Source: Candidatus Kapaibacterium sp.
Lineage (GTDB): Bacteria; Bacteroidota; Ignavibacteria; Kapaibacteriales; UBA961
Direction of reading: 5' to 3'
NCBI GenBank assembly: GCA_023259575.1
Contig: JALRHN010000003.1
Location: 1-33,001 of the forward strand
Length of the DNA stretch: 33,001 bases
The notes under the pieces were generated by a model that was not told the DNA's origin, searched no databases, and saw nothing but the letters and a program-made list of their open reading frames with translations. The position numbers and the translations under genes were made by a program. Positions 8,421-11,228 of this stretch are shown one piece after another. Every line of letters begins with the position of its first letter. The stretch's first letter is position 1.

Positions 8421-10739
8421 TTAAGCTTGAGGGTTTTCATTGCGATGCCTATCATCACCACGATGCCTGTCATCACCACGATGTTCCTCTCTAGGACGAT
8501 CTTCTCTAGGACGGTCTTCATATCTTCTGTCACCGCCACCTCGTCTATCGCCGCCTCTTCTATCATCAAATCGTCTATCATCTCTGCGTGGAGGTCTTTC
8601 GCTACGTTGTGGCTCTACATAACCTTCTGGAGGTGTTAATAGAACTTTGTGGCTTAGCCTAAATTTACCATCAGATTGAATTTCTAATAGTTTAACATCA
8701 ATTTGCTGTCCTGGTTTTAGAACATCACTAACATTCTGGAAATAATCATAGCTAATTTGAGAAATATGCAATAAACCTTTGGTTTTAGGCATAAATTCTA
8801 CAATCGCGCCAAGGCCTTCGCGGACATCTTTAACGGTAGCTGTGTATACTTTACCAATTTCTGGAGGACTTGTTATTGCACGTATTCTATCGATAGTTAA
8901 TTGAGCAGCTTCTTTATTTGTTGCAGCAATAATACAAGAGCCATCATCTTCAATTGTAATTTCAACGCCAAATTCTCTTTGCATTCCACGAATTGTATCA
9001 CCACCTGGCCCGATAACTGTTCCAATCATATCATTTGGAATCATGATTGTAGTTAATCGTGGTGCATATTCAGATAAATCTTCCCTTGGGGCAGACAATG
9101 CTTCATTCATAATATTAAGAATATGGAGTCTTCCAGCTCTGGCTTGTTCAAGTGCTTGACGCATTAAATGCGTAGAAAGGCCCGCAATTTTAATATCCAT
9201 TTGGCAAGCAGTAATACCATCCAAAGTTCCTGCAACTTTAAAGTCCATATCACCAAGAAAATCCTCATCGCCAAGGATATCACTTAATATTGCAGCATCA
9301 TCATCTTCTTTAATAAGTCCCATTGCAATACCAGCTACTGGTTTCTTTAATGGTACCCCAGCATCCATTAATGCAAGACTTCCAGCACATACAGTTGCCA
9401 TAGAAGAGGAGCCATTAGACTCTAATATATCAGAAACGATTCTAACTACATAAGGGAAATCTTCATTATTAGGCATCATGATATGAATAGCTCTTTCTGC
9501 AAGTTTTCCATGTCCAATTTCACGTCTGCTTGTGCCAGTCATACGGCCAGCTTCGCCAGTACTGAATGGTGGAAAATTATAATGAAGCATAAAACGACGA
9601 TATTCAGTAGGGAATAGGCCATCTATTAATTGTTCATCACTTTTAGTACCAAGTGTAACAGTAGTTAAACTTTGTGTTTCACCACGAGTAAATAATGCAG
9701 ATCCATGTGTTCTTGGAAGAACGGTTGTATCACAATTAATAGATCTAATATCTGTTGTTGTTCGTCCATCTAAACGAACTTTATCTTCTATAATCATGCG
9801 TCGCATTTCGTGCTTTTCAATCTTATAGATATATCCTTTTGTTTTTTTAGCTCTTGCATCAATTTCAGCTGTTTCCACTAATGGTAACATTTCTTGCAAT
9901 GATGAAAGAACAGTTTCTCTTAGCTGTTTTGCGAACTCTATTCTTTGCTCTTTAGATGAACTCTTACGAATTTGTTCACGAATTAAAGGAGCAGCGATAG
10001 ATGTAATAGCCTCTAATAACTCAGTATCTTCTTCAACAGTTACAATTTCTTGCTTTGCTTTACCAGCTAATTCTTTGAGTTGAAGTTGAAGAGCATTAAG
10101 TTTTTTGATATAAGAGTGCGCATATTCTAAGGCATTAATAAAATCATCTTCAGAAATTTCTTTTGAACTTCCTTCCACCATCATAATTGCATCATCGGTT
10201 CCAGCAACTGTGATTTCTATATCGGATTCTAATAATTGGCTTATAGTTGGATTAACGATAAATTCGCCATTTATTCTTCCTACTAAAACTTCGGAATATG
10301 GTCCATCAAATGGAATATCAGAAATAACTAAAGCAGCAGATGCACCAACCGCAGCTAGTGTATCGGCATCAATTTCAGGTTCTGATGAATACACAGAAGC
10401 AACTATTTGAGTTTCTTTTTGCCAACCTTTTGGGAAAAGGGGTCTAGCAGGACGATCAATCAATCGGGCAGAAAGTACTTCTTTTTCACTTGGTTTACCT
10501 TCTCTTTTAAAGAATCCACCTGGTATTTTGCCAGCAGCAGCAGTTTTTTCACGATACTCTACAGTTAAAGGTAGGAAGTCTATATCAGACCTTGGGTCTT
10601 GAGCAGCACAAACTGTTACAAGAACCATTGTATCTCCATAACGAACCATCACCGAACCATTAGCCAATTTTGCAAAGCGGCCAGTCTCTATCGAATATTC
10701 CCTGCCATTTAATTCCAGGGAAACGGAATGATGTGCCAT
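8421..10739 (-). CDS. pnp: Polyribonucleotide nucleotidyltransferase (PNPase)
   Basis: The start is placed at ATG 10739 (MAHHSVSLELNGREY, 772 aa), not the track's 10844. AAAGGAAAATT precedes this ATG, conserved PNPase sequence begins here, and the 35 extra residues do not resemble the family. PNPase degrades RNA 3' to 5' by phosphorolysis. Domains in order: first RNase PH core (about 10-140), helical linker (about 210-300), second catalytic RNase PH core (about 318-530) with TRGETQS (351-357) and DEDFLGDMDFKVAGT (491-505), KH domain with GPGG loop (577-580), and S1 domain (about 628-698). The last ~60 residues are an unusual Arg/Asp/Gly-rich tail with short repeats (HRGDDRHRGDDRHR, EDRPREDRPRE). 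The gene follows rpsO, as in many bacteria, but a terminator and a long leader hairpin separate them. Confidence 0.97.
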   Translation of the reverse strand: MAHHSVSLELNGREYSIETGRFAKLANGSVMVRYGDTMVLVTVCAAQDPRSDIDFLPLTVEYREKTAAAGKIPGGFFKREGKPSEKEVLSARLIDRPARPLFPKGWQKETQIVASVYSSEPEIDADTLAAVGASAALVISDIPFDGPYSEVLVGRINGEFIVNPTISQLLESDIEITVAGTDDAIMMVEGSSKEISEDDFINALEYAHSYIKKLNALQLQLKELAGKAKQEIVTVEEDTELLEAITSIAAPLIREQIRKSSSKEQRIEFAKQLRETVLSSLQEMLPLVETAEIDARAKKTKGYIYKIEKHEMRRMIIEDKVRLDGRTTTDIRSINCDTTVLPRTHGSALFTRGETQSLTTVTLGTKSDEQLIDGLFPTEYRRFMLHYNFPPFSTGEAGRMTGTSRREIGHGKLAERAIHIMMPNNEDFPYVVRIVSDILESNGSSSMATVCAGSLALMDAGVPLKKPVAGIAMGLIKEDDDAAILSDILGDEDFLGDMDFKVAGTLDGITACQMDIKIAGLSTHLMRQALEQARAGRLHILNIMNEALSAPREDLSEYAPRLTTIMIPNDMIGTVIGPGGDTIRGMQREFGVEITIEDDGSCIIAATNKEAAQLTIDRIRAITSPPEIGKVYTATVKDVREGLGAIVEFMPKTKGLLHISQISYDYFQNVSDVLKPGQQIDVKLLEIQSDGKFRLSHKVLLTPPEGYVEPQRSERPPRRDDRRFDDRRGGDRRGGGDRRYEDRPREDRPREEHRGDDRHRGDDRHRNENPQA

Positions 10740-10802
10740 AATTTTCCTTTTGAATAGCACTAATAAATCATTCTTAGTATCATTCTTTTGTTTAGCTGCA
10801 TA

Positions 10803-10848
10803 CTGAGCGGAGGAGAACACCATCATAAAGATGCTCTCCTGCACTCAG
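10803..10848 (-). promoter_or_regulatory. Long stem-loop in the pnp 5' leader, possible RNase III/PNPase autoregulatory site
   Basis: On the minus strand, CTGAGTGCAGGAGA pairs with TCTCCTCCGCTCAG, giving about 13 pairs including one G-U around a single C-C mismatch. A further CATC/GATG extends the stem towards a TTTAT loop, leaving a small asymmetric bulge. The hairpin ends 63 nt before the pnp ATG and lacks a T-tract, so it is not a terminator. In E. coli the pnp leader holds a comparable long stem cut by RNase III, after which PNPase represses its own mRNA. The same role here is inferred from position and shape. Confidence 0.6.
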
Positions 10849-10905
10849 ATCAGCCCGAAACTTCTACTTCCTTAACAAAGAATATATCAAGAATGTGTAA
10901 TTATG

Positions 10906-10920
10906 TTGGCAAATTGCCAA
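10906..10920. repeat. Perfect 7-bp inverted repeat TTGGCAA-A-TTGCCAA between rpsO and pnp
   Basis: TTGGCAA and TTGCCAA are exact reverse complements around one central base. The repeat lies immediately beyond the rpsO terminator T-tract and upstream of the pnp leader hairpin. It could be an operator or part of the terminator/leader structure. It is too short to assign a binding protein. Confidence 0.4.
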
Positions 10921-10948
10921 AAATAAAAAAGGGCGCTATAAGCGCCCT
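10919..10948 (-). terminator. Intrinsic terminator after rpsO
   Basis: On the minus strand AGGGCGCT-TAT-AGCGCCCT forms an 8-bp GC-rich hairpin followed by TTTTTTATTTTT. It starts about 14 nt after the rpsO stop codon. This separates the rpsT-tRNA-rpsO unit from pnp, although readthrough is possible. Confidence 0.9.
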
Positions 10949-10961
10949 GAAATGAGTCAGA

Positions 10962-11228
10962 TTACTTTCGTATTGATAATGCACTTATAATTGTGCGATA
11001 TCTACGAATATCATTTTTCATGAGATAATTAAGTAGTTTCTTTCTTTTACTTACCAATTGCATTAGGCCACGTCTAGAATGGAAATCCTTTTTATGAGTA
11101 TCCAAATGACCTGCCAACTGTGTAATATGTTCTGTAAGTAACGCAATCTGTACTTCTGGTAATCCAGTATTGGCTTCACTACCGCCATATTGCTTTACGA
11201 TTTCTGCTTTACGAGCTTGATTAAGCAT
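10962..11228 (-). CDS. rpsO: 30S ribosomal protein S15
   Basis: The protein has 88 residues, the usual S15 length, and is recognisable throughout: [32 protein letters not shown], then [22 protein letters not shown], then the C-terminal [15 protein letters not shown]15 is a primary binding protein of the 16S rRNA central domain and needed for platform assembly. The conserved His-Ser-Arg-Arg and Lys-Arg-Lys contacts to the three-way junction are intact. No strong Shine-Dalgarno sequence is visible; upstream is only AGAAACATT. It lies 47 nt after the tRNA-Arg gene, appears co-transcribed with rpsT and the tRNA, and is followed by a strong terminator. In E. coli S15 represses its own translation; no similar leader structure was evident here. 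Confidence 0.97.

Follow-up and report, generated by a model that had tools for sequence, protein, structure and literature searches.

A conserved imperfect hairpin in the pnp leader of a Kapaibacteriales family as a probable RNase III/PNPase feedback site that appears to descend from a dispersed palindrome

INTRODUCTION

The control of pnp through RNase III is a classic example of an enzyme that restrains its own mRNA, and has been described mostly in E. coli and Streptomyces. For E. coli, the work of Robert-Le Meur and Portier (1992) and Jarrige et al. (2001), as cited in PMC3839596 and PMC3997798, describes an RNase III-dependent PNPase autoregulation at rpsO-pnp, and RNase III was reported to cut the pnp leader, upon which the message decays faster (PMC5371410). 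In Streptomyces coelicolor, the rpsO-pnp intergenic region contains a hairpin that is a target of RNase III, which cuts it at an internal loop and reduces PNPase (PMC10126417). Among repeated palindromes, the Correia elements of Neisseria (CREE/NEMIS) are small mobile elements to which RNase III binds and which influence adjacent genes (PMC2649163), and the CGTC-tagged REPs were described from Chlorobi and Bacteroidetes among others, with no dedicated transposase reported (PMC3733652).

The locus studied here lies in a window of 33,001 nt, the whole stretch of DNA analysed, from a Candidatus Kapaibacterium genome (G000). In line with the resemblance noted in the first-pass annotation, it has the same anatomy as the E. 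coli site, namely rpsO, a terminator, a long, imperfectly paired stem interrupted by an internal loop or mismatch, a short spacer (~60 nt), a ribosome site and pnp, and RNase III and PNPase are encoded in both organisms. The E. coli pnp leader is predicted to form a −46 kcal/mol hairpin, and the published RNase III site (coordinate from PMC5371410) falls in its 5′ arm, adjoining an internal loop. The two leaders differ, however, in that no sequence relation was found by the model R1, which was built from the pnp hairpins of family f1, the family of the window, only; in that the hairpin here appears repeat-derived; and in that cutting and feedback are known in E. coli, whereas here it is the anatomy that suggests them. 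Set side by side by description, the S. coelicolor leader likewise has a hairpin with an internal-loop feature in the same gap, but it belongs to another phylum, has a 4/4 internal loop versus the 1/1 mismatch here, and has four mapped promoters versus a candidate −10 box picked by eye. The first-pass annotation had placed the mechanism in enterobacteria, which was too narrow, since a leader with RNase III control is also found in Streptomyces (PMC10126417). The Correia elements offer the parallel of a repeated palindrome giving an RNA hairpin able to control a nearby gene via RNase III; they are a different element of other organisms, whereas here one vertically kept copy sits at a single gene, in genomes that lack dispersed copies. 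The CGTC-tagged REPs are dispersed palindromes from the same broad bacterial group, but have 8–9 bp stems and 4–5 bp loops versus ~20 or more bp in the palindromes here, and the core hairpin, with an 18-bp stem plus mismatch and an 8-nt loop, falls outside that class.

RESULTS

The pnp leader contains the most stable local fold of the window

The genes are ordered as rpsT (presumably, the name being assigned from the gene's sequence), tRNA-Arg, rpsO and pnp, and the rpsO-pnp order was kept in nearly all relatives. The features of the locus are as follows:

8421..10739, minus strand: pnp, polynucleotide phosphorylase, with two RNase PH domains, KH and S1
10745..10750, minus strand: likely pnp Shine-Dalgarno AAAGGA, read from the sequence
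10769..10895, minus strand: predicted whole leader structure, with outer strands (~10895-10874 with 10794-10769) around the core
10803..10848, minus strand: core hairpin, with a near-invariant base CTGAGYG/CGCTCAG, a kept M.C mismatch, a covarying upper stem and a variable loop
10900..10905, minus strand: candidate pnp promoter −10 box CATAAT, found by eye just upstream of the outer stem
10930..10948, minus strand: rpsO intrinsic terminator, AGGGCGCTTATAGCGCCCT plus a T tract, apart from the leader hairpin
10962..11228, minus strand: rpsO, ribosomal protein S15, the upstream neighbour of pnp

The core hairpin (minus strand 10848-10803, CTGAGTGCAGGAGAGCATCTTTATGATGGTGTTCTCCTCCGCTCAG) is located in the rpsO-pnp gap, downstream of the rpsO terminator and ~63 nt upstream of pnp, and folds into 7 bp, a C.C mismatch, 11 bp and an 8-nt loop. 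The folds thus bear out the earlier claim that the arms pair almost fully around one C-C mismatch; the CATC/GATG pairing claimed at the top is an alternative only, the minimum-energy fold pairing CATC with GGTG. Folding of the 191-nt leader (10739-10929), suggested in the first-pass annotation as a check, yielded −58.4 kcal/mol versus −38.1 ± 3.9 for shuffled sequences (z −5.2), and when 13,178 60-nt windows on both strands were ranked, the core hairpin was the most stable local fold of the 33-kb window (−31.7 versus −23.5 kcal/mol of the runner-up). No T-tract follows the core hairpin and the rpsO terminator at 10948-10930 is separate, which agrees with the initial description of an untranslated leader lacking a T-tract; an equivalent GC hairpin was found immediately 3′ of rpsO in the relatives. 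At the Rfam gathering thresholds, tRNA-Arg was the sole match and the hairpin was unmatched.

In the predicted fold, the outer strands extend the core hairpin to an ~125-nt imperfect stem, beyond the span first annotated. Shuffling the flanks with the core kept gave a z of −2.5 in G000; an outer stem of quite different sequence was predicted in most relatives, for which the same shuffling gave z values of −1.3 to −4.0. The predicted outer stem is therefore supported when the group is taken together, with weak values in certain members.

A sigma-70 scan of the rpsO-pnp gap called no good promoter; the candidate −10 box reads TATAAT in the relative G001. RNase III was encoded in 15 of the 15 genomes searched, and the PNPase of the window carries the KH and S1 domains. 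Two further sequence features were observed in the window: a perfect inverted repeat, TTGGCAATTTGCCAA, at 10906-10920 between the rpsO terminator and the leader, which is not intact in the nearest relative G001 and may be chance or operator-like; and, at 8421-8600, a low-complexity PNPase C-terminal tail beyond S1 that is rich in R, D and G (RRDDRRFDDRRGGDRRGGG...).

The hairpin is kept and covaries throughout family f1

The first-pass annotation had made its reading depend on conservation and covariation of the stem in related genomes, and both were found. The motif CTGAGYGNAG N{8,38} CTCCGCTCAG occurs in exactly one copy per genome in 14 of 14 family f1 genomes, representing four genera, and in 13 of them it sits in the rpsO-pnp leader, about 59–78 nt before the pnp start. 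In the remaining one (G013), the hairpin lies 53 nt from the end of contig C290 (L189) and pnp is on another contig, C590 (L009), where the DNA upstream of pnp is unlike that of genus mates, probably because the assembly is broken or misjoined there. In the 47 further genomes of the order, the single match was in G038, where a palindrome scored on both strands.

Across an alignment of 12 distinct family f1 sequences with 19 pairs, 93% of the pair cells were formed, and sliding the arms out of register lowered the pairing to 40–50%. Changes on both sides occurred in six pairs, amounting to 16 such cells versus 6.4 in shuffled alignments (0/500), and the covariation score was 0.231 versus 0.128 (0/500); the count of double-change pairs by itself is less striking, being reached by 25 of 500 shuffles. 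Ten pairs never vary, the 7-bp base is nearly invariant, one G.U pair is invariant, and the mismatch is kept as C.C or A.C. In the PNPase trees, family f1 forms a clade (support 96/99) with long internal branches, and the PNPase distances are large; thus the hairpin has been conserved over the long term.

The leader hairpin resembles a palindrome dispersed in relatives

The search of the order with R1 also found palindromes dispersed genome-wide, with 37 matches in G091, 22 in G012 of family f1 and several in many genomes of f3, in counts that take both strands of one place twice. The best E-values were 4e-10 in G091 and 9e-8 in G012, rough values from a short calibration yet cleaner support than the shuffle p-value given below. 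Typical G012 copies read GTCATTCTGAGTGCAACGAAGAATCT...AGATTCTTCACTCCGTTCAGAATGAC, and the G091 version is more perfect. Compared ungapped over both arms, the leader hairpins share 27–31 of 40 arm letters with the G012 palindrome versus ~14.5 expected, an identity reached by at most 3 of 200,000 shuffles keeping pairs and composition; this p-value is optimistic, as the match was noticed after the model search and the register was chosen. The position of the mismatch is common to both, and remnants of the palindrome ends (GTCAT/GAATGAC) are retained in part, GTCATTCTGAG at the left end in G008 and CTCAGAATGAC at the right end in G009 and G011. Thus the hairpin agrees with the dispersed GTCATTCTGAG palindrome in arm sequence, register and mismatch; the many copies of the latter are lacking in the G000 genus, which has the pnp copy only.

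A second arm test was used for f2, f4 and controls only, its register not fitting the f1 hairpins; it gave matches to the palindrome for the f2 (g20) and f4 (g16) leaders, at levels reached by about 0.03–0.5% of shuffles. In the arm test, no match was obtained for the pnp hairpins of f2 g5, f8, E. coli and Chloroflexota.

The dispersed half-sites number 46 in G012 and 0 in its genus mates G007 and G010, so the dispersed copies turn over fast while the pnp copy stays. The simplest reading of these sequence comparisons is that the leader hairpin appears to descend from the dispersed GTCATTCTGAG palindrome as a domesticated copy. The first-pass annotation had seen the hairpin itself and had missed its match to the palindromic repeat of the relatives.

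Several observations concern the repeats themselves. The palindrome GTCATTCTGARYGNARYGAAGAATC with its mirror occurs in G012 (L132: G012:C79:9700-10950), G091 (L142-L145), G015, G024 and G043, the copy number per genome reaching the tens and some copies forming 96-bp tandem arrays. Pattern matches also delineate a 13-copy cluster of TTCTGAACGAAGTGAAGAATC at G043:C15:44356-44923, many copies being exactly 32 bp apart. A RAYT-type transposase was considered as the repeat source and rejected, Y1_Tnp not being found in the repeat carriers G012, G009 and G013. A literature search on the palindrome letters returned no relevant paper.

Unrelated hairpins occupy the same gap in other lineages

The rpsO-pnp order is general across the lineages examined. 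Within the order, a long leader hairpin of another kind (GTTGCCAGAAACGC...), with its own compensatory changes in six pairs, occurs in family f8, family f2 has another with compensatory changes in 13 pairs, and one f4 genus has a third kind. Several genera of f2, f3, f4, f5 and f6 have short rpsO-pnp gaps with no such hairpin, and sister orders within the class mostly have gaps of 21–90 nt with no long hairpin, G241 being the one exception. Outside the phylum, the Chloroflexota leaders carry very strong hairpins of ~30–41 bp, with roughly −50 to −68 kcal/mol among those listed. As separate observations, several of the loci L066-L083 (mostly Thermomicrobiales, and other Chloroflexota) have hairpins with a similar TTGGAGC/TTGGGGC...GCTCCAGT/GCCCCAGT core in the rpsO-pnp gap, and the f8-type leader hairpin of G020 (L033) has a large loop insertion that itself folds into a long stem.

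When R1 was run on 81 other pnp loci, E. coli included, no leader matched outside family f1; over 148 genomes of the phylum, the strong matches were the family f1 pnp copies only, and the weaker matches elsewhere were not at pnp positions. As short gaps lacking a hairpin prevail in the sister orders, the leader hairpin trait looks recurrent, judged from these unrelated sequences, rather than one ancient feature. The earlier suggestion was that the feedback is either older or has evolved twice: the hairpin is not an old shared feature of the phylum, as the f1 motif is lacking in the pnp leaders examined from other families and from the sister orders, and recurrent gain is favoured. Since the PNPase tree gives no branching order between the families, the number of gains is not claimed.

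DISCUSSION

The combination of a long untranslated rpsO-pnp hairpin, compensatory changes, and encoded RNase III and PNPase (KH, S1) fits an autoregulatory leader, and the analysis as a whole makes a function as a PNPase autoregulatory leader likely. Our best explanation, which we consider probable, is that the hairpin is a cis-acting RNase III/PNPase feedback site descended from a palindrome copy. The pnp mRNA would start downstream of the rpsO terminator, its 5′ end forming a long imperfect cis-regulatory hairpin, the double-stranded stem of which RNase III would cut close to the fixed mismatch. PNPase might then remove the cut upstream strand, or bind there via KH/S1, by which the pnp mRNA would be exposed to decay and PNPase would repress its own synthesis, as in E. 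coli. The GTCATTCTGAG palindrome copy would have entered the leader in or before the common ancestor of family f1 and then been kept by selection. Counting against this explanation, several families of the order have no such leader hairpin at all, and the sigma-70 scan called no good promoter in the gap.

The same structure could instead act independently of RNase III, as a 5′ stem shielding the pnp mRNA or bound by PNPase or another RNA-binding protein, with binding via the invariant CTGAGYG/CGCTCAG base and the mismatch setting translation or decay. The stem base and mismatch are indeed kept in sequence beyond what a generic RNase III duplex needs, and the outer stem has the candidate transcript start at its foot; such invariance is, however, also explicable by RNase III positioning or by palindrome ancestry, and the similar shape with unrelated sequence in other families favours an enzyme that reads shape, so that we regard this alternative as rather unlikely, though the one on function to be taken most seriously. 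That the hairpin is a functionless, immobile copy of a palindromic repeat, left in the rpsO-pnp gap by chance, would fit its strong likeness to the repeat and the spread of such repeats in the relatives' genomes, but seems quite improbable for a copy held at one place in 14 of 14 genomes of four genera with compensatory changes, when, even within the genus of G012, the dispersed copy numbers are wholly different. We give hardly any credence to a coding region or a transcription terminator. The longest open frame over pnp does begin inside the hairpin, at GTG 10844, and runs through into pnp, but the in-frame upstream extension varies from 6 to 46 codons and is unrelated among the relatives (14 codons in G002 and G006); translation across the hairpin, as an N-terminal extension or a leader peptide, was accordingly rejected, its frame not being conserved. 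A terminator is contradicted by the missing T-tract and by the separate terminator upstream.

With respect to origin only, and compatibly with the RNase III/PNPase feedback mechanism, the leader hairpin and the palindromes could have converged, each carrying a stem motif for the same protein with no common descent. Both are long palindromes, shared base composition and pairing inflate their similarity, and one arm largely fixes the other; the identity nevertheless exceeds pair-shuffle nulls that preserve composition and pairing, the mismatch position itself is common to both, and the pnp hairpins of E. coli, f8 and Chloroflexota do not match the palindrome. Convergence is therefore improbable in our estimation. 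As for descent from the palindrome, the fuller scenario, in which the palindrome was captured in the pnp leader of f1, and perhaps separately in those of f2 and f4, to become a switch for feedback through RNase III and PNPase, is held tentatively, a little short of an even chance. The PNPase tree gives no branching order between the families and so does not separate one ancestral capture from repeated captures.

A hairpin that looks like a domesticated repeat provides a concrete and testable route to a new regulatory RNA. Several lineages carry conserved rpsO-pnp hairpins that are unrelated to one another, which suggests that the feedback evolves repeatedly. If the capture scenario is true, repeat DNA can serve to rebuild this recurring pnp autoregulation, and RNase III hairpins are gained repeatedly in pnp leaders.
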